Below, in pieces: positions 25,010-37,809 of a DNA stretch of 37,809 nucleotides. The DNA comes from Paenirhodobacter ferrireducens (lineage in GTDB: Bacteria; Pseudomonadota; Alphaproteobacteria; Rhodobacterales; Rhodobacteraceae). The notes beneath the pieces were generated by a model. That model was not told the DNA's origin and ran no database searches. It saw only the letters and a program-made list of their open reading frames with translations. The stretch's first letter is position 1. The number at the start of each line of letters is the position of its first letter. The DNA is taken from assembly GCF_004022265.1 (NCBI RefSeq), contig NZ_SAVB01000032.1, forward strand, positions 1-37,809, written 5' to 3'. The translations under genes were made by a program, and so were the position numbers.

Positions 25010-25051
25010 TCCCGGATCGCCGCCTTCTCTGCACGGGGCGGTGCCCGCAGG

Positions 25052-25144
25052 TCAGTTCCGGCCGTGGCGGATGAAATCTGCGGCGCGCTCGCCAGCCATC
25101 ATCGCCGGGCCGTTGGTGTTGCCGGAGGGGACGAAGGGGAAGTG
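25052..25144 (-). pseudogene. GMC oxidoreductase C-terminal remnant cut by an IS
   Basis: The minus strand from 25144 to the stop at 25052-25054 reads 30 residues including VPSGNTNGPAMMAGERAADF, the characteristic C-terminus of GMC oxidoreductases (choline dehydrogenase group). The frame is broken at 25145, exactly where the IS3 element begins, and no N-terminal part is found beyond the IS pair. So the gene lost about 95 percent of its length through insertion plus deletion. It is unrelated in sequence to the two intact GMC genes at this end region. Confidence 0.75.
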
Positions 25145-25356
25145 TGAGCTACTCCCCCGAAAATCGGACAGTGACGTAAGCTACGATCTGCCATCTGCTG
25201 GTCTCCAAGAACGAGGAGATCAGACCATGTCGAAACGCAGGAACCACGACGCGGGCTTCAAGGCTCGTGTGGCGCTGGAAGCCGTGAAGGGCGAGCGCAC
25301 CGTGTCGGAGCTATCCGCGGAATACGGCGTGCATCCGACGATGATCCACCAGTGGA

Positions 25357-25403
25357 GTTGGGAGGATCAGAAAACGATCCAGTGAATCGTTTTCCCGACC
25401 AAC
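25357..25403. repeat. Palindromic insert, type C
   Basis: A 47-nt palindrome inside orfA: outer arms GTTGG/CCAAC and a perfect inner stem GAAAACGAT/ATCGTTTTC with a 7-nt loop. It interrupts the otherwise continuous orfA reading and brings a stop codon. Confidence 0.65.
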
Positions 25404-25505
25404 GCGCTGCTCGAGGGGGCGTCGGAGATCTTCGAGCGCGGCGGGAAGAAGAAGGCCGAGGTCGACGAGGAGACGGTGCGCTCGCTGCATGCCAAGATCG
25501 GGGAC

Positions 25506-25545
25506 TGAGCCATTGAGGCGCCATGGGTTCGAGCCCAATGGCGAA
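25506..25545. repeat. Palindromic insert, type A copy 1
   Basis: 40 nt, beginning TGAGCCATTG and ending CAATGGCGAA, with arms GCCATTG/CAATGGC. It interrupts the end of orfA. Its reverse complement matches the insert at 26035-26074 at roughly 33 of 40 positions by eye. Confidence 0.7.
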
Positions 25546-25850
25546 GGCTGTCGCTAACGATTTTTTGTCTAGAAAGCTCAAGCCCTGGACCAGCAAGTGA
25601 GACGCGGGATGGTCGAACGCTCACCCCACGCTGTCGATCGGGGCGCAATGCGGCCTGCTGTCGATCTCGCGGTCGTCATTCTACTACGCGCCGCAGGGAG
25701 AGACCGAGATGAACCTGGCGCTGATGCAGGTGATCGACCAGCAGTTCCTGGAAACCCCGTTCTACGGCGTCCGGCAGATGACCTGGCACCTGCAGAACGA
25801 GGGTCATCCTGTGAACCAGAAGCGCATCCGACGCCTGATGCGGCTCATGG

Positions 25851-25894
25851 TGAAGGGGATCGTGGCGCCAGTGGCGCCGCGTAAGCCCCGGAAC
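25851..25894. repeat. Palindromic insert, type B copy 1
   Basis: About 44 nt with a GGCGCCAGTGGCGCC core. The reverse complement contains GGGGCTTACGC and ATCCCCTTCA, shared with the inserts at 26122 and 26348. It shifts orfB out of frame. Ends are approximate. Confidence 0.7.
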
Positions 25895-26034
25895 GATGCC
25901 GATCTACCCGAAGCCCAACACCAGCAAGCCCGCCAATGGGCACAAGACCTCCCCCTACCTTCTGGGCGGACTGCGGGTCGATCGGCCCAACCAGGTCTGG
26001 TGCGCCGACATCACCTACCTGCCGATGCGACGCA

Positions 26035-26074
26035 TTCGCCATCGGGCTCGAACCGGTGGAGCCTCGATGGCTCA
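26035..26074. repeat. Palindromic insert, type A copy 2
   Basis: 40 nt, TTCGCCATCG to CGATGGCTCA, in opposite orientation to copy 1 and the same length. It restores the orfB frame that the type B insert at 25851 had shifted. Confidence 0.7.
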
Positions 26075-26121
26075 TTCCTCTACCTGGTCGCCATCATGGA
26101 CTGGTTTACCCGCAAGGTGTT

Positions 26122-26164
26122 TGATGGGCTTACGCGGCCCCACCGGGGCGACGGTCCCATCTCA
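26122..26164. repeat. Palindromic insert, type B copy 2
   Basis: About 43 nt, TGATGGGCTTACGC to GACGGTCCCATCTCA, central arms CCCC-ACC-GGGG. It lies in frame in orfB between the MDWFTRKV and WRISNTL blocks, adding about 16 residues. Confidence 0.7.
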
Positions 26165-26347
26165 CCCTGGCGCATCTCGAACACGCTCGAAGCCGACTTC
26201 TGCGTCGAGGCGCTGAACGAGGCGGTCCACCGCTTCGGCCCGCCTGAGATCATGAATACCGATCAGGGTTCGCAGTTCACGTCCTTCGCCTGGACCGACC
26301 GGCTGAAACGGATCGGCACTAGGATCTCGATGGACGGCAAGGGCCAT

Positions 26348-26391
26348 TCATCGGGCTTACGCCGCACCACTGGCGCGACGGTCCCTCTTCA
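26348..26391. repeat. Palindromic insert, type B copy 3
   Basis: About 44 nt, TCATCGGGCTTACGC to GACGGTCCCTCTTCA. It lies in frame in orfB between SMDGKG and LDNIFIERL. It shares both end blocks with copy 2. Confidence 0.7.
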
Positions 26392-26727
26392 TCTCGACAA
26401 CATCTTCATCGAACGCCTCTGGCGATCCCTGAAGTATGAGTGCGTCTACCTCCACGCTTGGGAGACCGGTTCGCAGGCCAAGGCCGGCGTTGGCCGATGG
26501 ATCACCTTCTACAACCACCAGCGGCCCCACGCCGCCCATGGCGGACAACCGCCTGCCGTGGTCTACTTCAACCAGATCGAAACCGACCAGCAGGGGCAGA
26601 GAGTCGCTTCAATCATCCCGGAAACTGTCCAAACGATGGGGAGGTGCTCAACGTCGTTCGCTCATCTCGTGGACCTCCACGAGGATCACGACGGCTTCGC
26701 GCCTGGCGGCGGGCGTTACCACTTTCG

Positions 26728-27019
26728 GCTGAGGAGATCCTTCAACGCGGCCTGGTCGAGCAGGGCATCTGCCAACAGGCGCTTCAACTTGGCGTTGTTC
26801 GCCCGTTCTCTCGAACCGGTGGCGTTCACGGGCTCACTCCTCGAGCGCCTTCAGCCGCTTCGCGTCCGAGACCTCCATGCCCCCAAACTTCGCTTTCCAG
26901 GCGTAAAAAGCCGAGGTGCTGATCCCGTGCCGACGGCAGAGATCAGCGGTCTTTGCCCCCGCCTCGGCCTCTTTCAGGATGCCGATGATCTGGGCTTCGT
27001 TGAACTTCGATGGCTTCAT
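26728..27019 (-). pseudogene. IS3-family orfA of the second element, interrupted
   Basis: Starts KPSKFNEAQIIGILKEAEAG and continues with a helix-turn-helix (DLCRRHGISTSAFYAWKAKF) to KRLKALEE, where a stop arises at about 26834 because of the type A insert at 26798-26836. The coding sense resumes after it with NAKLKRLLADALLDQAALK and ends at about 26728 with SRKW. The normal protein would be about 88 residues. Confidence 0.8.
26798..26836. repeat. Palindromic insert, type A copy 3
   Basis: 39 nt, TTCGCCCGTT to ACGGGCTCA, with central TCGAACCGGTGG shared with copy 2. It sits in the orfA of the second, different IS3 element, showing that the inserts are not part of one IS. Confidence 0.65.
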
Positions 27020-27078
27020 GGTCCGATCCTTCTATTGGGTCGGATTCTAGCATCAACTGGAGGAACTATCGGGGGTCA

Positions 27079-27243
27079 CAGCAGCCGCGTAACTAACCCC
27101 AATCAGCCTCCGGCAAACCTGGCGCGGTTCAATCGGCGCCGTGACCGGGAGTGGTGCCGGCGCCACCCGCCGCGCTCCCCCTGCGCCCCGTCCCGCACGG
27201 CCGCCCCCGGTCAAGCCGGCCCGGCCGTGCGGTCTGCCGGCTG
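27079..27243. other. IS-to-regulator junction with shared repeat and hairpin
   Basis: No gene seen. At 27107-27132 a sequence (CCTCCGGCAAACCTGGCGCGG core) nearly repeats 431-456 at the other IS cluster. At 27193-27232 an 11-bp perfect stem CCGCACGGCCG/CGGCCGTGCGG forms a large hairpin just past the DeoR stop, likely its transcript end, though without a T-run. Confidence 0.5.
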
Positions 27244-28008
27244 TCAGGCGGGGGGGCGGGCATAATGCACCGTGCCGCGCAGCAGCGTCAGGTCGACGGG
27301 CGCACGGCTATCGGTCACCAGATGGTCGATCTCGTCGGGGCGGCAGATCGTCACCCGACTTTCGATGCCGATCTTGTCGGCATGGCACAGCATGATGCAG
27401 GCGCGGGCGCGGCGCATCATCGTGCGCGCCACCTCTGCCTCGTGGATCTCATAATCCGTCGCGCCGCGGGTCGGGTGCATGCCGACCGGCGAGATCACTG
27501 CGAAATCGGCGAGGAAGCGGTCGATCTCGGCAAGCGTCATCTCGCCATAGGTCGCGGGGACGTCGCTGTGCGGCCGTCCGCCCAGAAGCAGTGTGTCGCA
27601 GCTGTCGACCGGGGCGGTGATCCGGGCAATCTCCAGCGCATTGGTGATGATGCGCATGTTGCCGCGGCGCGCCAGCTCCTGCGCGAAGGCAAGTGTCGTC
27701 GTGCCTGCGTCGATGAACAGGGTCGAGCCCGGCGGGATCAGATCGCAGGCGCAACTGCCGATCGCCGCCTTGAATTCGGATTGCACCCCGCGCCGCTCGT
27801 GGAAGGCGGGTTCCGGGGTGATGTCGGGCCGGCGCTGCATCGCTCCGCCATGCACGCGCAGGATATCGCCGTCCTCCTCCATCTCGAGCAGGTCGCGCCG
27901 CACCGTCTCGCGCGAGACGTCGAAGAGCTGTGCAAGGGTGTTGGTATAGACCTTGCCGTCGCGCCCGAGGATCTCGAGGATCTTCGACTTCCGTTCATGA
28001 GCCCACAT
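27244..28008 (-). CDS. DeoR-family transcriptional regulator
   Basis: A 254-residue DeoR/GlpR-type regulator. The N-terminal winged HTH has ILEILGRDGKVYTNTLAQLF and then SRETVRRDLLEMEEDG; the C-terminal sugar-isomerase-like sensor has the phosphate-binding loop LFIDAGTTTLAFAQEL. Family members usually respond to a phosphorylated metabolite, which fits the kinases and phosphatase encoded in the divergent operon. Start at 28008 (GGAGGGGAG upstream) preferred to the in-frame ATG at 28041. Probably represses the operon starting at 28268. Confidence 0.9.
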   Translation of the reverse strand: MWAHERKSKILEILGRDGKVYTNTLAQLFDVSRETVRRDLLEMEEDGDILRVHGGAMQRRPDITPEPAFHERRGVQSEFKAAIGSCACDLIPPGSTLFIDAGTTTLAFAQELARRGNMRIITNALEIARITAPVDSCDTLLLGGRPHSDVPATYGEMTLAEIDRFLADFAVISPVGMHPTRGATDYEIHEAEVARTMMRRARACIMLCHADKIGIESRVTICRPDEIDHLVTDSRAPVDLTLLRGTVHYARPPA

Positions 28009-28267
28009 CGCTGCTCCCCTCCGTTTCGTGATCTGTAGCATGTGCCTCGCGGGGCGTCATTGAATTTGCGTTTATGTGGACGGATGTGTCGATGATCGTG
28101 TTTTTTGCGTATTTATTTGGCAAAATGAAGGGAATCTCGCAGATAGAATAGTCAATTTATGGTTTTGCGTGCTTTCCGTTGTGATTTTTGTGGTTTTGCG
28201 CGGCGGCCGTCCTGCAGGCTGCCGGCAAGACCGAATGATTCCACAAGAACTGAAGAGGCACCCGATC
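28009..28267 (+). promoter_or_regulatory. AT-rich divergent control region with TTTTGCG repeats
   Basis: An AT-rich stretch (about 28060-28200) in an otherwise GC-rich window. It holds same-direction copies of (T/A)TTTGCG at 28064, 28103, 28163 and 28194. DeoR-family proteins typically bind several direct repeats, so these are candidate operators for the regulator at 27244-28008. No unambiguous promoter hexamers were assigned. Confidence 0.5.
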
Positions 28268-29062
28268 ATGCTGAACCTGACAGAGGCGCTGCATTTCGCC
28301 AATGAGACCGTCGACGAGGCGGGCAGGATCGCGCGGGAGCATTTCCGCCATCCGCTGGCCGTCGAGCATAAGGCGGACGACAGCCCGGTGACCGTGGCCG
28401 ATCGCGGCATCGAGGCCTTCGTGCGTGCCCGGATCGGCGCCGCCTATCCCGATCATGGCATCTATGGCGAGGAAGAGGGGCCGGTGAACCTCGACCGGCC
28501 GCATGTCTGGGTGGTCGATCCGATCGACGGCACGAAAAGCTTCGTCACTGGCCATCCGCTCTTCGGTGGGCTGATGGCGCTGCTCGAGAATGGCGAGCCC
28601 TGCCTTGGCATGATCAACATGCCGGTGACGGGCGAGCGCTGGTGCGGGCTGCGCGGCGAGCAGACCACGCTGAACGGCGTGCCGTGCCATACCAGCGGGC
28701 GCAAGGATCTGGCCGAGGCCTTTGCCTATACCACCGACCCGTTGCTGTTCTCCGGCGCGAAGGCGCTGGTGTTCGAGATGCTGCGCGAGACGGTGCGGAT
28801 GATCCGCTTCGGCGGCGATTGCTACAATTATGCGCTGCTTGCCTCGGGCTGGTGCGATCTCGTGCTCGAGACCGGCCTCGAACCCTATGACTACCTGCCG
28901 GTGGTGCAGGTGGTGCGCGGCGCGGGGGGCGTCATCACCGATTGGGAGGGGGGCGAGCTGAGCACCTCCTCGCGCGGCGATGTGCTGGCCTCGGCCACCC
29001 CGGAACTGCATGCGGGAATGCTCGACCGGCTGGCCGGGCTGCGCGCGACACAGGCGGCGTGA
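28268..29062 (+). CDS. Inositol-monophosphatase-family phosphatase (HisN-like)
   Basis: A 264-residue metal-dependent phosphatase. Metal ligands are visible: Glu68/Glu69 in IYGEEEG, Asp84 and Asp87 in VVDPIDGTKSF, and Asp208 in EPYDYLP. The FVTGHPLFGGLMAL and GGDCYNYALLASG blocks are closest in look to the histidinol-phosphatase/IMPase subgroup. First gene of the operon after the DeoR control region; GAAGAGG is about 9 nt before the ATG. With two kinase-like genes downstream it may dephosphorylate an imported or pathway phosphoester. Substrate unknown. Confidence 0.85.
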   Translation: MLNLTEALHFANETVDEAGRIAREHFRHPLAVEHKADDSPVTVADRGIEAFVRARIGAAYPDHGIYGEEEGPVNLDRPHVWVVDPIDGTKSFVTGHPLFGGLMALLENGEPCLGMINMPVTGERWCGLRGEQTTLNGVPCHTSGRKDLAEAFAYTTDPLLFSGAKALVFEMLRETVRMIRFGGDCYNYALLASGWCDLVLETGLEPYDYLPVVQVVRGAGGVITDWEGGELSTSSRGDVLASATPELHAGMLDRLAGLRATQAA

Positions 29063-29135
29063 CGATCACGCCAACCCAAGACGACAAGACCGAAAAACAC
29101 ACAAAAACCACAAGACCCAACAGGAGACTGACAGC

Positions 29136-30710
29136 ATGGACAGACGACAGTTCCTTCGGTACGGCGCCATGGTGGGGGCGGCCTTCGCCGCGCCCCGGAT
29201 CAATCCCGACTTCCTCTTCAGCTCGGCCCGCGCTGCCGACATGCGGCCGCTGACCTTCCTTTCGGCCGAGAACATCACCGGCAACTGGGACCCGACCTCG
29301 CACACGACGCTGTCGCAGTCGAACATCGAGGGCTTCGTCATGGGCTTCCTGACCCGGGCCCCGATGCGCCCCGAAAACCCCGACGAGGTGATCTACGAAC
29401 TCGCCACCTCGATCCGCGAGATCGACGCGCATCACCTCGAGATCAAGCTGCGCGAGGGCGTTACCTTCCATGACGGCAAGCCCTTCACCGCCGAGGACGT
29501 GAAAGCGACCTTCGACTATGGTGCGCAGCCCGATCGCCCGAAGCAGGTCTATCCCGGCCCGACCGGCAGCTTCGAGATCACCACGCCCGATGACTACACC
29601 GTCATCGTCGACACCTCGAAGGGGGGCTACGGCGCCTCGCTGTTCATCTTCCTCGCCTCCTATCTGCCGATCCTGTCGGCCAAGGACGTGGCCGAGGGGC
29701 CGAAGGGCGCACTGACGCAGCGGCTGAACGGCACCGGGCCGTTCAAGTTCGTCGAACAGCGCGGCAACGATACGGTGATGGAGGCCTTCCCGGGCTATTT
29801 CAAGGGCGCGCCGAAGATCGCGGGCGTCACCTTCTCCTTCGTCGGCGATGCCACCACGCGGATGCTGTCGCTGATGAACGGCCAGGCCGACGTCATCGAG
29901 CGGCTTGAACCGGAACAGGTCGAGACGCTGGAAAAGGAAAAGAGCATCAAGCTCTCGCGCCTCGTCTCGGTCGAGAACAAATATCTGTGGTTCCGCTGCT
30001 CGAAACCGCCATTCAACGATCCGCGCCTGCGCAAGGCGGCGGCCCATGCGATCGACCGCGACATGATCATGGAAGTGATGGGCTCGGCCGGACATGCCTC
30101 GTCGAACTTCATCTCGCCGATCAAGTTCGGCTATGTCGACCTGCCGAACTATCCGAAATACGACCCCGACGAATGCCAGCGCCTGCTGGCCGAGGCGGGC
30201 TTCCCGGGCGGCAAGGGCCTGCCGGAACTCGAATACATCACCTCGACCGGCTTCTATCCGAAGACCAAGGAATATGGCGAGGTGATCGCCGCGATGCTGC
30301 AGGAACAGGGCTTCCCGGTGACGCTGAACGTGATGGAGGTCGCGGCCTGGAACGAGCGCCTCTATGACCGTCCCGGCGGCGGCCCGGGCCACATGGTCGA
30401 CTGCGGCTGGTCGACCGGCTCGCCCGAGCCCGACCTGGTGCTGCGCACGCATTTCCATTCGAGTTCGAAGCGGATCTGCGGCATCGAGGACCCCGAGATC
30501 GACGCCGCGCTCGATGCCGAGCGCAACGCCCCCTCGCTCGAGGCGCGCAAGACATCGCTGCAGACGAACCTGATGCCGATGCTCGCCGACAAGGTTCCGG
30601 CGCTGAGCCTGTTCACCTCGGTGCTGATCCACGGCATGCGCGCCGATGTGCAGGATCTGTTCATCTACCCCGACGGGCTGAGCGACGCCTCGAAGACCAC
30701 GCTCGGTTGA
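29136..30710 (+). CDS. Dipeptide/oligopeptide-type ABC substrate-binding protein
   Basis: A 524-residue SBP_bac_5 family binding protein. The N-terminus MDRRQFLRYGAMVGAAFAA has a twin-arginine-like RRQFLR motif and ends with a cleavage site near SARA-A (about residue 33), so export may use Tat. The mature part shows IKLREGVTFHDGKPFTAEDV and TGPFKFVEQ, typical of the family. It would deliver a peptide-like or amide-type solute to the permeases encoded next. AGGAG precedes the ATG at 29136. It is followed by a strong hairpin, so it is probably made in excess. Confidence 0.92.
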   Translation: MDRRQFLRYGAMVGAAFAAPRINPDFLFSSARAADMRPLTFLSAENITGNWDPTSHTTLSQSNIEGFVMGFLTRAPMRPENPDEVIYELATSIREIDAHHLEIKLREGVTFHDGKPFTAEDVKATFDYGAQPDRPKQVYPGPTGSFEITTPDDYTVIVDTSKGGYGASLFIFLASYLPILSAKDVAEGPKGALTQRLNGTGPFKFVEQRGNDTVMEAFPGYFKGAPKIAGVTFSFVGDATTRMLSLMNGQADVIERLEPEQVETLEKEKSIKLSRLVSVENKYLWFRCSKPPFNDPRLRKAAAHAIDRDMIMEVMGSAGHASSNFISPIKFGYVDLPNYPKYDPDECQRLLAEAGFPGGKGLPELEYITSTGFYPKTKEYGEVIAAMLQEQGFPVTLNVMEVAAWNERLYDRPGGGPGHMVDCGWSTGSPEPDLVLRTHFHSSSKRICGIEDPEIDAALDAERNAPSLEARKTSLQTNLMPMLADKVPALSLFTSVLIHGMRADVQDLFIYPDGLSDASKTTLG

Positions 30711-30716
30711 TCCCTG

Positions 30717-30744
30717 CCGGGGCCGCGCAGGCGGCCCCGGTTTT
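30717..30744 (+). terminator. Strong intrinsic terminator/attenuator after binding-protein gene
   Basis: A perfect 10-bp GC stem CCGGGGCCGC, loop GCAG, GCGGCCCCGG, followed directly by TTTT. It lies within the operon between the binding-protein and permease genes, so it probably terminates only part of the transcripts and sets their ratio. Confidence 0.8.
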
Positions 30745-30773
30745 CCCGACAGCCACGAAGCCCGGAGCAGTCG

Positions 30774-31754
30774 ATGCCCATTCTCCGTTTCCTCGTGCGC
30801 CGGCTCTTCCAGGGGGCGATCATCGTCTTCCTGGTCTCGGCGCTGATCTTCACCTTGCTGCGCATCGTCCCCGGCGATCCGGTGCGGCTGATGGCGGGCG
30901 GCATGGCGCCCGAGGCGCTGATCGAGCAGATCGCGACCGAGATGGGCCTGCGCGACCCGATCTACGAGCAGTTCGGCCGCTATGTCGGTGGCGTGCTGCA
31001 AGGCGATCTGGGGCAAAGCTTCGTGCGCCCGGCGAACGGCGCGGCGGTCGGCGGCGCGAGTTTCGACGACAGCACCCGCTCCGAGCGCGCCAAGGTGCTT
31101 GACCTGATCGCGCAGACCGCGCCGAAGACGATCCAGCTTGCCCTGCTGGCGATGGTCTTCGCGCTGATCATCGCGGTGCCGATCGGGGTCTGGGGCGGGC
31201 TCAACCCGGGGCGGTTGCCGGACCGGCTGGCGCTGTATCTGTCCTCGGTTCTGGTCAGCCTGCCGAATTTCTGGCTGGGCATCGTGCTGGCGCTGCTGCT
31301 CTCGGTGAAGCTGAACCTGCTGCCGGCGATCGGCTACAAGGGCTTTGCCTACACGATCCTGCCGGCCTTCGTGCTGGCGCTCGAGATCGCGCCCTTCATC
31401 ATCCGCAACCTCTCGGTCTCGGTGGCCGGGGTGATGGGGCAGAACTTCATCGACATCGCCCGGGTGCGCGGGTTGACCCGCAACCAGATCATCTTCCGCC
31501 ACGCGATGAAAAACTCGGCGGTGCCGCTTCTGAACCTGCTTGGCGTGCAGTTTTCGATGCTGCTGGGCGGCGTTCTCGTGATCGAATTCATCTTCGACTA
31601 TCCCGGGCTTGGCCTGTTGACGATCAATGCCGTGATGCAGCGCGACTTTCCGCTGATTCAGGGCATCGCCGTCGTCACCGCCGCGGCCTTCGTCCTCATC
31701 AACATCGTCGTCGACCTGCTGGCGACGACCATCGACCCGAGGCTCGACTACTGA
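30774..31754 (+). CDS. DppB-type ABC permease
   Basis: A 326-residue permease with about six membrane segments. It opens LRFLVRRLFQGAIIVFLVSAL and then LRIVPGDPVRLMAGG, the standard DppB N-terminus; the ATPase-docking loop IDIARVRGLTRNQIIFRHAM lies near residue 225. An insert around residues 85-110 (FVRPANGAAVGGASFDDS) is in the periplasmic loop. It overlaps the next permease gene by one nucleotide (TGATG), indicating coupling. Confidence 0.92.
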   Translation: MPILRFLVRRLFQGAIIVFLVSALIFTLLRIVPGDPVRLMAGGMAPEALIEQIATEMGLRDPIYEQFGRYVGGVLQGDLGQSFVRPANGAAVGGASFDDSTRSERAKVLDLIAQTAPKTIQLALLAMVFALIIAVPIGVWGGLNPGRLPDRLALYLSSVLVSLPNFWLGIVLALLLSVKLNLLPAIGYKGFAYTILPAFVLALEIAPFIIRNLSVSVAGVMGQNFIDIARVRGLTRNQIIFRHAMKNSAVPLLNLLGVQFSMLLGGVLVIEFIFDYPGLGLLTINAVMQRDFPLIQGIAVVTAAAFVLINIVVDLLATTIDPRLDY

Positions 31755-32662
31755 TGAGCAGCATCGACATCACCCCGCCCCGCGCCGCCGCCCGGGAAAA
31801 GACCGTCTCCGCCCGGATCTGGCATCTCGCGCTCTCCTCGGTCGAATTCCGCATCGGCCTTGTCGTCTTCACCGTGCTGCTGCTGGCCACGCTGTTCTAC
31901 CCGTGGCTGAGCGGCATCGACCCGCTGAAGATGGCGATCCGCGAAAAGCTTCTGCCGCCGCTCTTCCTTGGCGAGGGCTGGAGCTGGGCGCATCCGCTCG
32001 GCACCGACCAGCTGGGCCGCGACATGCTGGCGCGGGCGCTCGTCGGGCTGCGCTATTCGCTGCTGATCGGCATCTCGACCACGGTCCTGATGGTGATGAT
32101 CGGCGCGATGGTCGGGCTGTTTGCCGGCTATTACGGCGGTCGGGTGGACACCGTGCTGATGCGGCTCACCGATGCACAGCTGTCGATCCCGATGATCATC
32201 CTCGCGATCACCATTCTCGGCGTCTCGCGTCCGACGATCCCGGCGATCATCGTCGTGCTCGGCCTCGCGGGCTGGCCGGTCTATGCGCGGGTCATGCGCT
32301 CGACGGTGATGGCCGAGCGCAAGAAGGAATACGTGCGCGGCGCGATGGTGCTGGGTGCCACGGACCTCAGGATCATGTTCACCCTGATCCTGCCGCTGGT
32401 GCTGCCGCCGATGTGCTTCGTCGCAGTGCTCGACATCGCGCGGATGATGATCTTCGAAAGCGTGCTCGGTTTCCTCGGCCTCGGCGTGCAGCCGCCCACC
32501 CCCACCTTCGGCAACATCATCGCCGACGGCCGGAAATACCTGATGAACGCCTGGTGGATCGCCACCATGCCCGGCGTGTTCCTGGTGCTGACGCTGACCA
32601 GCATCAACCTGATGGGCGCCGCGCTCGAACGCGCCCGCAACGCGATCTACGGAGGTGCGTGA
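31754..32662 (+). CDS. DppC-type ABC permease
   Basis: A 302-residue permease of the dipeptide family. HPLGTDQLGRDMLARALVG is the DppC hallmark, and the docking loop YVRGAMVLGATDLRIMFTLI lies near residue 192. The end, ARNAIYGGA, is unusually truncated compared with DppC C-termini, which often have ERLRDALDP-like sequence. Partner of the DppB-type permease; its stop at 32660 lies just before the ATPase ATG at 32664. Confidence 0.92.
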   Translation: MSSIDITPPRAAAREKTVSARIWHLALSSVEFRIGLVVFTVLLLATLFYPWLSGIDPLKMAIREKLLPPLFLGEGWSWAHPLGTDQLGRDMLARALVGLRYSLLIGISTTVLMVMIGAMVGLFAGYYGGRVDTVLMRLTDAQLSIPMIILAITILGVSRPTIPAIIVVLGLAGWPVYARVMRSTVMAERKKEYVRGAMVLGATDLRIMFTLILPLVLPPMCFVAVLDIARMMIFESVLGFLGLGVQPPTPTFGNIIADGRKYLMNAWWIATMPGVFLVLTLTSINLMGAALERARNAIYGGA

Positions 32663-32663
32663 G

Positions 32664-34520
32664 ATGTCGCTCGACATGGTCCGGAACGAGGTGTTGCTGT
32701 CGGTGCGCGATCTATCGGTCGCGGCAGAGGGGGAGGGCGGCGCGCTGCGCCCGATCCTCGACCGGATCTCCTTCGATCTGGCGCCGCGCCAGATCCTGTC
32801 GGTGATCGGCGAAAGCGGGTCCGGCAAGACGGTGCTCGCCCGCACCATCGCCAGCTGGCTGTCGGCGCCGCTCACGGTAACGGGGGGCGAGGTGCTGTTT
32901 CGCGGCCGCGACCTGCTGGCCGATCCCGCCCATGCGCGCAGTCTGGCCGGGCGCGAGATCGCCTATGTCGGCGGCAACCCGGCCGGCGCGCTCGACCCGA
33001 CGATGACGGTGGGCGCCCAGCTGGTCGAGAAGCTGCGCGCCGTGCGCCCCGAGATCACCCCCGCCGAGGCGAAGGACAAGGCGATCCGGCTGCTGTCGGC
33101 GGTGCGCATCCCCGCGGCCGAGCGGCGCTTCCACGAATACCCGTTCCAGTATTCGGGCGGCATGATGCAACGCGCGATGATCGTCGATGCGTTGATCTCG
33201 GACCCGGCGCTGCTGATCGCCGACAACATCACACAGCCGCTCGATGTCACGGTGGCGGCGCAGATCCTCAAGCTGATGCGCGAGCTCAACGCCGAGTTCT
33301 CGACCGCGATCCTGTTCATCTGCTCCTCGCTGCCGGTGGCCTGCGATGCCTCGGACGAGGTGATGGTGCTGCATCAGGGCCGGGTGGTGGAGCGTCAGGC
33401 GCCCGCGGCGCTCGTCACCCGGCCCGGACATGGCTATACCCGCGCCCTGATCGCGGAGCTGCCGACGCTGTGGCAGGGCGGCCCCGAGGGGCGCGACGAG
33501 CGGCAAAAGCGCGACCAGCGCGCGATCATGTCGGTCAACGGTGTCTCGAAGGCCTACGAGACCCGCGGCAAGAGCGGCAAGGCGCTGGTGCAGGCGGTGC
33601 GCGATGTCACCTTCGACGTCTTCCCCGGCGACAATTTCGGCATCGTGGGCGAATCCGGCTGCGGCAAGTCCTCGCTGATGCGGTTGCTGACCGGGCTCGA
33701 ACGCCCCGATGGCGGCACGATCCTGTTCGAGGGCGAGAATGTCGGCGCTGCCAGCCCGGCACGCCTGCGCGAGCTGCGCCGCAAGTTCCAGCTGGTGCTG
33801 CAAGATCCCTATGGCTCGCTGCCGCCGCAAAGCGCGATCGGCGCGATCCTCGAGGAACCGCTGAAGATCCACCGCATCGGCACCGCCGCCGAGCGGCGCG
33901 AACGCGCCCGCGCGGTGATGAGCGAGGTGGGGCTTCCCGCCGACATCTATGAAAGCCTGCCGACCGGGCTTTCGGCGGGCCAGCGCCAGCGCCTCAACGT
34001 CGCCCGCGCGATGATCCTCGAACCGCGGCTGCTGATCATGGACGAGACGCTCTCGGCGCTCGACCAGACCGAGCAGGGCAAGTTGCTGGATCTGTTCGAG
34101 CGGCTGCAGGCGCAGCACGGCTTCACCTATATCTTCATCTCGCATGACATGACGATGGTGCGGCAGGTCTGTTCCCGCATCGCGGTGATGTATCTGGGCG
34201 AGACCGTCGAGGTGGCCCCGAGCGAGCGGCTGTTCTTCGAGCCGGGTCACCCCTACACCCGGGCGCTGCTGTCCGCCGCGCCGACGCTCGAACCGCGCCG
34301 CTACCGGCCCGAGGACTGCCTGCTCGACGGCGAACCGCCCAGCCCGATCGACCTGCCGCCGGGCTGCGCCTTCGCCTCGCGCTGCCCGAGCGTCACCACC
34401 CGCTGCCGTGCCGAGAACCCGGCGCTGCGCACCCGCGGGAGGCAGGCGCTTGCCGCCTGTTTCCTCGTGCCCGACCCTTCCGTGACTTCCGATGAACCGA
34501 TGGAGCAATCCGATGTCTGA
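32664..34520 (+). CDS. Fused double ABC ATPase (DppD-DppF type), first half degenerate
   Basis: A 618-residue fusion of two nucleotide-binding domains. NBD1 (about 11-265): Walker A GESGSGKT (49-56) and signature YSGGM (163-167) are kept, but the Q-loop Gln is replaced (GGNPAGALDP, Gly104), the Walker B Glu is Asn188 (IADNIT) and the switch His is Ser221 (FICSSL). NBD2 (about 290-545): Walker A GESGCGKS (329-336), Gln380, LSAGQ (436-440), DE (460-461) and His494 are intact. A C-terminal oligopeptide-transporter tail with CAFASRCPSV follows. NBD2 should hydrolyse ATP and NBD1 probably only binds it. GGAGG lies 8 nt before the ATG at 32664. It overlaps the M20 gene. Confidence 0.9.
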   Translation: MSLDMVRNEVLLSVRDLSVAAEGEGGALRPILDRISFDLAPRQILSVIGESGSGKTVLARTIASWLSAPLTVTGGEVLFRGRDLLADPAHARSLAGREIAYVGGNPAGALDPTMTVGAQLVEKLRAVRPEITPAEAKDKAIRLLSAVRIPAAERRFHEYPFQYSGGMMQRAMIVDALISDPALLIADNITQPLDVTVAAQILKLMRELNAEFSTAILFICSSLPVACDASDEVMVLHQGRVVERQAPAALVTRPGHGYTRALIAELPTLWQGGPEGRDERQKRDQRAIMSVNGVSKAYETRGKSGKALVQAVRDVTFDVFPGDNFGIVGESGCGKSSLMRLLTGLERPDGGTILFEGENVGAASPARLRELRRKFQLVLQDPYGSLPPQSAIGAILEEPLKIHRIGTAAERRERARAVMSEVGLPADIYESLPTGLSAGQRQRLNVARAMILEPRLLIMDETLSALDQTEQGKLLDLFERLQAQHGFTYIFISHDMTMVRQVCSRIAVMYLGETVEVAPSERLFFEPGHPYTRALLSAAPTLEPRRYRPEDCLLDGEPPSPIDLPPGCAFASRCPSVTTRCRAENPALRTRGRQALAACFLVPDPSVTSDEPMEQSDV

Positions 34521-35799
34521 CACCCTTGACCTCGCGCAGATCGACGCGGGCCTTTTTCAAACCCTGATGGAGAAGGTCTCCGAATTCGGCTCGACCGGGG
34601 ATGGCGGGGTCGACCGTCCGGTGCTGACCGATGCCCACAAGGCGGCGCGCGACTGGTTCATCTCGGAACTGACGGCGCGCGGCTATACCGTGGTGATCGA
34701 CGACATCGGCAACCTGTTCGGCCGCATCGACCTGGCCGGGCCGGACGCGCCGCTGGTCATGCTGGGCTCGCATCTCGACAGCCAGCCGAAGGGCGGCCGC
34801 TTCGACGGCGCCTATGGCGTGATGGCGGCGCTAGCGGCTGTCGAAAGCTGGCGCGCGAGCGCCGCGGCGCAGGGCATCGCGCCGAAATGCAACTATGTCG
34901 TCGCCGACTGGATGAACGAGGAGGGGGCGCGGTTCCAGCCCTCGCTGCTCGGCTCCTCGGTCTGGGCGGGGCTGGTCGAGCGCGACTGGGCGCTCGAACG
35001 GCGCGACCGCGACGGCAAGAGCGTGGGCGAGGAGCTGGTCCGCACCGGGTTCAACGGCACCGGCGTGATGCCGAAGCCCGACCTCTATCTGGAAATCCAC
35101 ATCGAGGGGGATTCGAAGATGGAACAGGCCGGCGCCCGCATCGCCCCCTATGCCCGCCATTGGGGTGCCTACAAGGTCCGCATCGAGGTCACCGGCGAGC
35201 AGAACCACACCGGCCCGACCCCGATGGAAGAGCGCAAGGACGCTGTCCTTGGCGCGGCCTATATCATCGCCAAGGTGCGCGAGCTGGCCGAGACCGCGGC
35301 CGACACGCTTTACACCTCGGTGGCGCGGGTCGACATCTCGCCGAACTCGCCCAACATCGTGCCCGGCAAGGCGATCCTCTTCGCCGAGCTGCGCTCGCCC
35401 GAGCAGGCGATGCTCGACTGGTCGCTCGGCGAGCTGCGCAAGGCCCTTCCCGGGCTGGCGGCACAGGCGCAGGTCAGCGCCGAGATCGCGGCGATCGACG
35501 AGCGCCCGGCGGGCCGGTTCGATCCGCGGCTGGTGAAGCTGACCGAACAGGCCGCGGATGCCTTCGGCTATCCGCGGATCGAGCTCGACACCGTCGGCGG
35601 CCATGATGCGGTCGCGGTGAACGCGATCCTGCCGGCGATCGTCATCGCGGTGCCCTCGGTCAACGGGGTGATCCACCGCAACGACGAATACACCTCGCCC
35701 GAGGATCTGGCGGCTGGCTGTGACGTCTTCGTCGACATCGTGCGGCGCGTCGATCAGGCGGGGGGCGATCTCGACAAGGCGGTGGGGGCAAACGCATGA
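34513..35799 (+). CDS. M20-family amidohydrolase (N-carbamoyl-amino-acid hydrolase/allantoate amidohydrolase type)
   Basis: A 428-residue binuclear-metal amidohydrolase. Metal-ligand motifs: GSHLDSQ (His87), GGRFDGAYGV (Asp98), MNEEGARFQPSLLGS (Glu136/137), LEIHIE, and near the C-terminus VIHRNDEYTSPEDL. The lid domain has EQNHTGPTPMEERKDA. The family cleaves carbamoyl or amide bonds of ureido acids and related compounds. Its position behind a peptide-type importer and before kinases and EutB suggests release of an amine from an imported amide or ureido conjugate. Start at 34513 (GGAG 7 nt upstream) overlaps the ATPase gene by 8 nt; it overlaps the next gene by 4 nt. Confidence 0.87.
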   Translation: MSDTLDLAQIDAGLFQTLMEKVSEFGSTGDGGVDRPVLTDAHKAARDWFISELTARGYTVVIDDIGNLFGRIDLAGPDAPLVMLGSHLDSQPKGGRFDGAYGVMAALAAVESWRASAAAQGIAPKCNYVVADWMNEEGARFQPSLLGSSVWAGLVERDWALERRDRDGKSVGEELVRTGFNGTGVMPKPDLYLEIHIEGDSKMEQAGARIAPYARHWGAYKVRIEVTGEQNHTGPTPMEERKDAVLGAAYIIAKVRELAETAADTLYTSVARVDISPNSPNIVPGKAILFAELRSPEQAMLDWSLGELRKALPGLAAQAQVSAEIAAIDERPAGRFDPRLVKLTEQAADAFGYPRIELDTVGGHDAVAVNAILPAIVIAVPSVNGVIHRNDEYTSPEDLAAGCDVFVDIVRRVDQAGGDLDKAVGANA

Positions 35800-36746
35800 C
35801 CGGGGCGCTCGTCACCTCCGACGATCTGGCCGCCGCCTGCCGGGCCGCGGGCCTGCCCGGGGGGGCGCCGGTCGCGCCCGGTCCGGGGCCGCTCGCCTCA
35901 CCAAGCTACAAGGCCCTCGAAAGCGCCTCGGTCATCGTCGATGCGCGCCCGGGGCCGGTCTTCGTCAAGGTCATCCACCCCGAGATGCGGGCGGGCTTCG
36001 ATCTGCCGGCGGCGATGAGCCTCGCCCGGGCCGCAGGCGAGATCGGCGTCGGGCCGGAGGTCCTGTGGTCGGATGCCGGCGCCGGGGCGATCGTGATGAC
36101 GGCACTTCTGCCCGCCGCGGGCTGGCGCACCGCCAATCAGGCGGTGCTGCAGGACCCGGCCGTGGTGGCGGCTGCGATGGCGGCGCTGCGGGCCCTGCAG
36201 GCGACGGCCCCGCTTGCACATCGTTTCGACCCCTTCGCCGAGATCGACCGGCTGATTGCGGGTTTCGCCGCGATCGGGGCGCCGTTGCCTGCCGATACCG
36301 GCTGGCTGCGCGCGGTTCTCGCGCTGTGCGAGCCGATGATGGAAGATGCAGTGCTGGCGCCCTGCCGCAACGACGGCGCGGCCTCGAACCTCCTCGTCGG
36401 GTCCGGTGGGGTGCAGCTTGTCGACTTCGACCGGGCCGGGATGATGGATCCGCTCTACGAGGTCGGCGCGCTGCTGGCTGAGCTCACCGATTTCGAGACC
36501 GACATGATCCCCGGCTTCGTCGCCTATCTCGGCCACTTCGACGCGGTGGCCTTCGCCCGCGCGCGGCTGTGGTCCTTCGTCGACGACATGCTGCACGGGC
36601 TGTGGTCGCGGCTGCAGGCGCATCGCTCGGCGCGCGGCGGCGTCGAATGGCAGAAATACGGCGAATGGCGGCTGATGCGGCTGCGCCTTGCGCTGAACCA
36701 TCCGGGGTTCGAGGAAAAGATCCGCATTGTCAGGGGGCAGGCATGA
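35796..36746 (+). CDS. Choline/ethanolamine-kinase-like phosphotransferase, copy 1 (divergent)
   Basis: A 316-residue protein of the APH/choline kinase superfamily. Visible: ATP-site Lys58 in VFVKVI, the Brenner-motif region CRNDGAASN (Asp193, Asn198) and the Mg site LVDFD (Asp210). The His normally two residues before the catalytic Asp is Arg191. The glycine-rich N-lobe is poor. It is a distant paralogue of the next gene; both end in similar KYG-W-LMR-R-L blocks. It could phosphorylate an amino alcohol or be a regulatory partner of copy 2. Start overlaps the M20 stop (ATGA). Confidence 0.75.
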   Translation: MTGALVTSDDLAAACRAAGLPGGAPVAPGPGPLASPSYKALESASVIVDARPGPVFVKVIHPEMRAGFDLPAAMSLARAAGEIGVGPEVLWSDAGAGAIVMTALLPAAGWRTANQAVLQDPAVVAAAMAALRALQATAPLAHRFDPFAEIDRLIAGFAAIGAPLPADTGWLRAVLALCEPMMEDAVLAPCRNDGAASNLLVGSGGVQLVDFDRAGMMDPLYEVGALLAELTDFETDMIPGFVAYLGHFDAVAFARARLWSFVDDMLHGLWSRLQAHRSARGGVEWQKYGEWRLMRLRLALNHPGFEEKIRIVRGQA

Positions 36747-37684
36747 TGAAATCTCTGGGCACGGCGGCAACGCCGATGGAAGAGACGATCGAGGCCGTCA
36801 TCCTAGAGGCGCCGCTGTTCCGCGGTGGGCAGGGGATGGTCTATGGCCCGGTCTCGGGCGGGATCTCGAACGAGAACTGGCGTGTCACCGCCACCGATGG
36901 CACCGGCGACTGGTTCGTGAAGGTGCCGGGCAACGGCACCGAGATGTTCATCGACCGCGTTGCGGCCTTCGATGCCGCGCGCAAGGCGGCGGCAGCGGGG
37001 CTTGGGCCCCGGGTCTATGAGGATCTCGCGCACCGGGGCATCGAGATCAATGATTTCCTGCCCGACCGACGGCCCTCGACACACAGTGACTTCGCCGATC
37101 CGGCGAAGCGGCGCGCGGCGATCGCGGCCTATCGCAGGATGCACGCGATGCCGGCGCTGGACCTGACGAAGACGGTCTTCGACATGATCGACGAGCATGC
37201 CGCGCAGGTGGCCGCGCTGGGCGCACCGCATTACCGCGACGAGGCCTGGGTGATGTTCAACGCCGGTCTTGCGCGGCAGGCGCTCGAGGCGTCGGGGCTC
37301 GATCTCGTGCCCTCCTTCAACGATCCGATGCCCGGCAATTTCATGATCGGCCCCGATGGTTCGGTGATGCTGATCGACTACGAATATGCCTCGATGAACG
37401 ATCGCTGCTATGATCTCGGCATCTGGTTCGGCGAGATGTTCTTTCCGCCGGAACAGGAACTCGAGCTGATCGAGGACTATTTCGGCGAGGTCCGGCGCGA
37501 CATCGTCGCCCGCGTCATCGTGCACAAGGCGCTGGCGGATGTGAAATGGGCGCTGTGGTCGATGGTGCAACTGAAAGTCTCGCGCCTCGACTTCGACTTC
37601 CATAAATATGGGGTGTGGAAGCTGATGCGGTTCCGGCAGATCACCGGCCATCCGGAGTGGCCCACGCATCTGCGCAACCTGTGA
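36743..37684 (+). CDS. Choline/ethanolamine-kinase-like phosphotransferase, copy 2
   Basis: A 313-residue choline/ethanolamine kinase-like protein (LicA type). Features: N-lobe GPVSGGISNENWRV (35-48), Lys60 in WFVKVPG, catalytic loop SFNDPMPGN (Asp194, Asn199, with Phe192 replacing the usual His), and LIDYEYASMNDRCYDLG (Asp212), which closely follows the choline/ethanolamine kinase pattern. By family it would transfer phosphate from ATP to choline, ethanolamine or another amino alcohol. Two adjacent ATGs (36743, 36746) follow CAGGGGGCAGG; the first overlaps the stop of copy 1. The EutB-like gene begins 7 nt after its stop. Confidence 0.85.
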   Translation: MMKSLGTAATPMEETIEAVILEAPLFRGGQGMVYGPVSGGISNENWRVTATDGTGDWFVKVPGNGTEMFIDRVAAFDAARKAAAAGLGPRVYEDLAHRGIEINDFLPDRRPSTHSDFADPAKRRAAIAAYRRMHAMPALDLTKTVFDMIDEHAAQVAALGAPHYRDEAWVMFNAGLARQALEASGLDLVPSFNDPMPGNFMIGPDGSVMLIDYEYASMNDRCYDLGIWFGEMFFPPEQELELIEDYFGEVRRDIVARVIVHKALADVKWALWSMVQLKVSRLDFDFHKYGVWKLMRFRQITGHPEWPTHLRNL

Positions 37685-37691
37685 GGCGGTG

Positions 37692-37809
37692 ATGGGATAT
37701 CAGTCGGTTGCACGGGGAGAGCGGTTTGGCTTTGCGACGCTGGCGGCGGTGATGGCGGCGGCGACGCCGGATCGGTCTGGCGATGCGCTGGCTGGGATTG
37801 CGGCGAGCA
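37692..37809 (+). CDS. eutB: Ethanolamine ammonia-lyase large subunit, N-terminus only (runs off window)
   Basis: From the ATG at 37692 the frame is open to the window edge (39 residues). It contains ERFGFATLAAVMAAATPDRS and then GDALAGIAAS, matching the conserved N-terminus of EutB (an FxxLxxVxAxAxxxxSGDxLAGxAA pattern). EutB with EutC forms the adenosylcobalamin-dependent lyase that turns ethanolamine into acetaldehyde and ammonia. GAGG lies 5 nt before the ATG. Only the first tenth is visible, so completeness and the presence of eutC cannot be judged. No microcompartment genes are seen on this side. Confidence 0.8.
   Translation, partial: MGYQSVARGERFGFATLAAVMAAATPDRSGDALAGIAAS

Follow-up and report, generated by a model that had tools for sequence, protein, structure and literature searches.

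What does a bacterium take up and dismantle with a row of genes that joins a peptide-type importer, an amidohydrolase, two kinases and a phosphatase to the start of an ethanolamine ammonia-lyase gene? The question is posed by positions 27244-37809 of a 37,809-nucleotide stretch of Paenirhodobacter ferrireducens DNA (NZ_SAVB01000032.1; here the window), which is an entire contig (C24) of a 61-contig genome. This region consists of a DeoR-type regulator gene and, divergent from it, a tight row of nine genes in which adjacent members overlap by 1-8 bases or sit 7-73 bases apart (Table 1). Within the row, a hydrolase of the M20 family and two kinase-like proteins, K1 and K2, form what is, judged by gene content, the conserved core of related loci, and a link of this core to ethanolamine is well supported by the genes found beside it. 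As a tentative answer, to which slightly less than an even chance is given, the row would be a catabolic operon for a small conjugate of the amide type, built on ethanolamine or a very close amino alcohol; the conjugate would be imported and its amino alcohol, once freed, passed to ethanolamine ammonia-lyase (EutBC).

The ten proteins of the locus were assigned to families by Pfam and NCBIfam profile scans. Together with the reading frames, these scans confirmed the genes, their order and their overlaps as placed by the original prediction, a reading of this DNA made from its sequence alone, with matching coordinates throughout 27244-37809. The DeoR gene, being divergent, adjoins the transcript and is not a member of it. 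The prediction had also set the row apart from the eut microcompartment operon and from the kinase/phospho-lyase route, and both distinctions hold for the ten proteins scanned, among which there were neither shell proteins or eut proteins besides EutB nor a phospho-lyase of the class III aminotransferase type; neither was looked for elsewhere in the genome.

Conservation of the core

Relatives of the locus were found by a K2 scan, which confirmed 89 of them; the best 80 loci were kept, and counts of loci refer to those 80. The presence of genes was scored by tblastn with fixed identity limits. K1, whose query also matches K2, was counted where a separate second kinase with at least 180 aligned residues lay directly upstream of K2. 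By these measures M20 is present in 76 loci, and the second kinase is found upstream of K2 in the same 76. The solute-binding protein (SBP) follows with 67, its combination with the first permease, which defines the Dpp-type importer, with 66, a DeoR-type match with 64 and the inositol-monophosphatase-superfamily phosphatase (IMPase) with 51. EutB was detected in 21 loci and EutC in 17, always alongside EutB. The closest named relative is Sinirhodobacter hankyongi (L007), in which K2 is 97% identical. The original prediction had named conservation of the importer and the twin kinases beside EutB across relatives as a check: importer and kinases are indeed conserved, and it is the company of EutB that falls short.

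Four loci lie outside the 76 (L026, L027, L036 and L074). The second kinase of L026 has only 178 aligned residues, L036 lacks a second kinase and any M20 in the interval from IMPase to K2, and L074 begins at a contig end. In Paenirhodobacter enshiensis (L027:9584-10936) the operon is reduced to K2 and fragments of K1.

Ethanolamine genes beside the core

Where EutB accompanies the core, it does so in two recurrent gene orders. It directly follows K2 in 11 loci, all Rhodobacterales by name, starting 3-31 bases after the K2 match, and it follows K2-IMPase in nine others; in L051 it is divergent and lies at the contig end on the other side of the locus. Paracoccus yeei and Agrobacterium plasmids with annotated genes (L089, L090) show both orders as well. 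Some of these copies are incomplete, with only 76 matched residues in L026, a contig end cutting L036 and a split gene in L060, and L061, which has only a 40% EutB fragment, was excluded from the 21. In two further loci, those of a Roseitalea metagenome-assembled genome (MAG; L032) and Oceaniradius stylonematis (L033), the core is followed on its 3' side and on the same strand by genes for an FGase, a glutamine synthetase (GS)-like protein, an aldehyde dehydrogenase (ALDH) and an iron-containing alcohol dehydrogenase (Fe-ADH), the first gap being 64-65 bases. This set corresponds to the ethanolamine pathway described for Phaeobacter MED193 (PMC10132767), and the same glutamylation-type pathway has been proposed for Streptomyces (PMC6529630). 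Because EutB stands with the core in two gene orders and the glutamylation genes stand with it in two more loci, the association with ethanolamine goes beyond chance. Such physical linkage is stronger evidence than genome-wide co-occurrence. The ALDH and Fe-ADH genes near the core in Mesorhizobium, and an Fe-ADH gene in P. yeei, were considered as further parts of this pathway, but they reach at best 34% (ALDH) and 37% (Fe-ADH) in matches to the enzymes of L033 and were not counted.

The amino alcohol could in principle be 2-aminopropanol or serinol, with EutBC used for a side activity, and EutBC does accept 2-aminopropanol. We hold this to be very improbable, as the gene set of L032 and L033 is homologous to a pathway described for ethanolamine (PMC10132767).

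In the window itself only the first 39 residues of the eutB frame precede the contig end. They match the Pfam EutB profile with an E-value of 7.9e-5 and 22.1 bits, below the 25-bit cut-off, and the NCBIfam EutB profile with 2.3e-6 and 26.6 bits, where the cut-off is 554. Relatives of the same gene order (L008, L011, L089) have a complete EutB and then EutC at this place, and the contig of the close relative L007 breaks at nearly the same spot. The frame is thus very probably a real EutB, as had been predicted from its first codons. The assembly offers a likely reason for the break. The last 127 bases of the window (37683-37809) recur exactly, reversed, at the start of contig C33 (L006:1-127), where the gene after the shared bases is of CobW type. 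Two eutC 3' ends are found in the same genome, where contigs C27 and C60 (L115, L116) terminate; they are identical over their first 107 bases and with few differences thereafter before the eutC stop. The genome therefore probably holds eutBC twice, in near-identical copies, and the assembly has lost the middle part common to both, with a presumed junction between this contig and one of the eutC ends. After eutC, the next long frame in both C27 and C60 lies on the opposite strand, which makes eutC the probable last gene of the operon. One eutBC 5' end would then lie in this operon and the other beside the CobW-type gene.

The M20 hydrolase and the nature of the amide

Like the N-carbamoyl amino acid and allantoate amidohydrolases of the M20 family, the hydrolase of the core shows full-length homology to solved relatives (8c46, 5thw, 5i4m and 4wjb). 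Across 76 rows, H86, D97, E136, H195 and H387, which we take to be the metal site, and N280 and R293, which presumably form the anion site, are invariant apart from 0-3 gaps. This conservation upholds the predicted assignment to the amide- or carbamoyl-cleaving M20 enzymes, with the protein best described as a carbamoylase/amidase-type hydrolase. It differs from the four solved relatives at Gly198, where all of them have the Gln of the HxEQG motif, a presumed substrate contact. The tally at this position is G59/Q9/C7 with one gap; divided by transporter, it becomes G57/C6/Q2 in loci with the Dpp-type importer and Q7/G2/C1 with one gap in those without. This distribution suggests that the M20 groups with and without the importer represent two substrate classes.

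These differences bear on the main rival explanation, in which ethanolamine plays no part: the core would degrade a ureide or another amide, with EutBC carried along as a passenger or supplying ammonia in some lineages. It is kept alive by the 59 of 80 loci without EutB and by urea-type variants. Some loci without the Dpp set pair the core with urea-type SBPs (L069, L080, L082, L084), with genes resembling dimethylformamidase (DMFase; four of the 80 loci) or with amidases, and on a plasmid of P. oryzihabitans the core lies near genes for allophanate hydrolase, formamidase and HpxZ. Against it stands the fact that EutBC is built into the row itself, in two arrangements, and that two further loci have the enzyme genes of another ethanolamine pathway. 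Moreover, the M20 group to which the window belongs differs at the HxEQG Gln from the importer-variant loci, and the substrates of the two may differ. On balance this rival is judged unlikely.

Some of the variant loci merit description on their own account. The neighbours of the core on the plasmid of P. oryzihabitans include a HAD-type homologue of histidinol-phosphatase and a sodium:solute symporter, and no IMPase appears in the gene table of that stretch, which is incomplete. M20-K1-K2 occurs near a DMFase-like large subunit (PF20254) in L056, L069 and L080, with a urea-type binding protein in the latter two, and these loci are possibly a variant for other amides. Second modules follow EutC in L020 (13127-20208) and L023 (13115-16836), each with an amidase-signature-like protein, a second K1-K2 pair and a DUF2938 protein; the second pairs are 29-37% identical, and the L020 module also has a TRAP transporter. 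In view of these modules, the twin kinases pair with two unrelated amidase folds.

The twin kinases and the order of steps

Structure models of K2 (pLDDT 92.7) and K1 (pLDDT 90.8), each built from 21 rows, agree with a kinase fold and have 3dxq and the pneumococcal LicA as their best PDB folds, although they do not tell the substrate. The catalytic Asp, the Asn and the second Asp of K2 are invariant in 83 of 83 rows, a set that includes the second pairs of L020 and L023 and a plasmid copy (L092). In human choline kinase alpha (CKalpha), Tyr333, Trp420, Trp423 and Tyr440 line the choline site (PMC4814829). At the corresponding positions, mapped by alignments and residue spacing, K2 has Y80/F3, W83, W83 and Y83, respectively. 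Tyr333 is presumably the Tyr of the DFEY motif. K2 is, by its fold and its catalytic and aromatic positions, a member of the choline/ethanolamine kinase family, and kinase activity is predicted for it. K1 retains the Asn and second Asp in all of its 80 rows and has D74/E5/H1 at the catalytic Asp; its aromatic positions vary, with mainly R34/M24 for Tyr333, W55/H21 for Trp420, W40/R27 for Trp423 and Y69/F7 for Tyr440. K1 could phosphorylate in its own right or act as a partner of K2.

The original prediction had the system import an ethanolamine conjugate, hydrolyse it and feed the amine to EutB. Its ethanolamine link has gained support from EutB in two gene orders and from the glutamylation genes. 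As a scheme it is incomplete: it finds no use for the phosphatase, nor for the twin kinases, which are among the best-conserved members of the locus. One way to employ these enzymes is to let the kinases act after M20: K2 would be an ethanolamine kinase, phosphoethanolamine the inducer of DeoR or a store, and IMPase would return ethanolamine to EutBC. The aromatic choline/ethanolamine-site positions retained in K2 are in keeping with such a role, and DeoR-family proteins usually sense phosphorylated metabolites. However, a kinase and a phosphatase working on one compound would make a futile cycle, and this arrangement finds no role for K1, full-length in 76 of the 80 loci. We regard it as quite unlikely.

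In the operon that we favour, phosphorylation would instead come early. The family-5 SBP and the Dpp-type ATP-binding cassette (ABC) importer would take the conjugate in, and K2, with K1 as a partner or second kinase, would phosphorylate its amino-alcohol end, thereby trapping the conjugate and perhaps yielding the inducer of DeoR. M20 would then cleave the amide, its conserved Arg/Asn site holding a phosphate or carboxylate, after which IMPase would strip the phosphate and EutBC would convert ethanolamine to acetaldehyde and ammonia. We infer the order of the kinase, M20 and phosphatase steps, as well as the amide as the bond cut and an ethanolamine conjugate as the substrate. The more specific claim of a new route, in which the twin kinases phosphorylate an imported ethanolamine amide before the M20 cut and so feed either EutBC or the glutamylation pathway, seems somewhat unlikely. 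In the use of N-acetylglucosamine by NagK, NagA and NagB, a kinase, an amide hydrolase and a deaminase likewise serve one catabolic route; the proposed route resembles this kinase-deacetylase-deaminase sequence in logic only, as the protein families are unrelated.

Weighing the ethanolamine reading

Several observations weigh against a dedicated ethanolamine operon of this kind. Beyond the absence of EutB from most loci already noted (in nine of the 80, a short contig or a contig end less than 2 kb from K2 limits the view), phosphorylation followed by dephosphorylation is costly. The carboxylate that M20 relatives bind in their substrates is lacking in a plain N-acylethanolamine. The tally of choline-site residues in K2 covers four positions, and Tyr354 is a further residue of that site (PMC4814829).

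The history of EutB is of less help than it first appears. In a tree of 41 EutB rows, the nine Rhizobiales operon copies share one long branch and the 10 Rhodobacterales copies fall in another group, in which one stand-alone copy (L145) is nested. A single origin is rejected for these 19 operon rows (approximately unbiased test, p-AU 8e-9). With the nested L145 added it is no longer rejected (p-AU 0.30), and the idea that the core acquired EutB on two separate occasions, which the tree had suggested, was dropped as an argument.

Genome-wide markers, searched with L041, L074, L075, L076, L079, L083, L085 and L086 left out, cut both ways. Among the 49 genomes searched whose locus lacks EutB, a set that includes L027 with K2 and its fragments of K1, 24 have EutB elsewhere, 22 have a GS homologue (at least 57% identity) and three have neither, two of these three being MAGs; one marker or the other is thus present in 46 of 49. 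Nine of the 22 GS neighbourhoods were examined, and ALDH and Fe-ADH are present in 9/9 and FGase in 7/9. At the 57% level none of the 49 has both markers, although in one of the EutB genomes GS has a match of 46%. By comparison, five of the 23 genomes with a locus EutB match (the truncated L007 and the L061 fragment included) also have GS. The window genome (G000) gave no match to the ethanolamine gamma-glutamylase GS at an E-value of 1e-150.

A background sample of 394 genomes of the window's family, scored for GS at 1e-150 and for EutB at 1e-20, has GS in 250, EutB in 24 and both in two. Either marker is found in about 274 (about 70%), counting the truncated EutB genomes G000 and G008. As the markers reach 46 of 49 core genomes but about 70% of the family as well, the support they lend is moderate. 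The mutual exclusion of EutB and GS, tried as evidence for the core, is weakened in the same manner, since it also holds in the background sample, where 2 of the 24 EutB genomes have GS. K2 matches occur in nine genomes of this sample, seven of them close (at least 74%), and all seven have a marker, though with a p value of 0.08. Two contrasts are sharper: a marker is present in 26 of 28 core-bearing Rhodobacterales genomes, assigned by name (p 0.003), and EutB is enriched in the seven close core genomes (3/7 vs 23/387, p 0.008, with two truncated copies counted).

Regulation

The region between the DeoR and IMPase genes contains a candidate operator. The word TGTGGWTTT occurs at 15 sites in 11 of 24 such intergenic regions, that of the window included, where 200 dinucleotide shuffles gave a mean of 0.28 sites and at most two. 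The word was picked after inspection of common words, and the sequences share ancestry; as a DeoR operator it is only a lead.

Relation to known systems

In Proteobacteria and Actinobacteria, EutBC is known from short eutBC(-eat) operons (PMC6529630), which resemble the window in having EutBC without microcompartment genes. The window differs in that its row also contains a phosphatase, a Dpp-type importer, an amidohydrolase and the twin kinases, and no ethanolamine permease was found among the ten locus proteins scanned. The glutamylation pathway (GGAH, ETAGA, GAADDH and GETADH in Phaeobacter MED193, GlnA4 in Streptomyces), whose enzyme genes follow the core in L032 and L033, starts, as described, from free ethanolamine (PMC6529630, PMC10132767); the window genome, with no match to its GS at 1e-150, has eutBC. 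K1 and K2 share the fold of LicA and the choline/ethanolamine kinases (4r77, 3dxq and the human choline kinases), and K2 also keeps their catalytic and aromatic substrate positions, but the window stands apart in having them in tandem and alongside importer and amidohydrolase genes. No description of the operon was found in a literature search by title and opening of the abstract, outside which most subscription journals lay. All of the parts come from known families, and it is their combination, with two alternative exits, that would be new.

Ethanolamine is a common nitrogen and carbon source derived from membranes. The routes for its use in the papers compared start from the free compound, whereas a conserved importer-kinase-amidohydrolase core beside two different sets of ethanolamine genes suggests that a bound form has been overlooked. 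If this is true, an ethanolamine conjugate so far unrecognised as a nutrient would be widespread in soil, plant and marine habitats. Culturable Alphaproteobacteria carry the genes through which this can be tested, namely those for the SBP, K2 and M20.

Features of the locus

Table 1. Genes and control region at positions 27244-37809 of the window, with the profile matches on which each assignment rests.
Feature	Position	Strand	Basis and remarks
DeoR/GlpR-type regulator	27244..28041	-	PF08220 and PF00455; divergent from operon
Intergenic control region	28042..28267	.	One TGTGGWTTT word, candidate DeoR operator
IMPase, HisN-like	28268..29062	+	PF00459; TIGR02067 HisN 264.7 bits, below cut-off 275
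Solute-binding protein family 5 (SBP_bac_5), Tat-like signal	29136..30710	+	PF00496, PF10518
ABC permease, DppB-like	30774..31754	+	BPD_transp_1 PF00528, PF19300
ABC permease, DppC-like	31754..32662	+	BPD_transp_1 PF00528
Fused double ABC ATPase, DppD-DppF-like	32655..34520	+	PF00005 in two stretches, oligo_HPY
M20 amidohydrolase, hydantoinase/carbamoylase/allantoate amidohydrolase type	34513..35799	+	NF006772 617 bits, cut-off 424
K1, choline/ethanolamine-kinase fold, diverged substrate positions	35796..36746	+	APH PF01636
K2, choline/ethanolamine-kinase-like, substrate positions conserved	36746..37684	+	Choline_kinase PF01633 (73.7 bits, cut-off 29) and APH
eutB start, ethanolamine ammonia-lyase large subunit (very probable)	37692..37809	+	Frame 37692-37808, 39 residues, ends at contig end

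The solved sequences nearest to the SBP are 5u4o and the dipeptide-binding protein DppA. Just beyond the DeoR gene, at 25041-27265 of the window, the translations include frames that resemble pieces of IS3-type transposases. In four loci of Methylobacterium type (L045, L048, L049 and L075), genes for a GbcA-like Rieske oxygenase, a reductase and a flavoenzyme of the old yellow enzyme (OYE) type lie downstream of IMPase, and these could be a separate operon.

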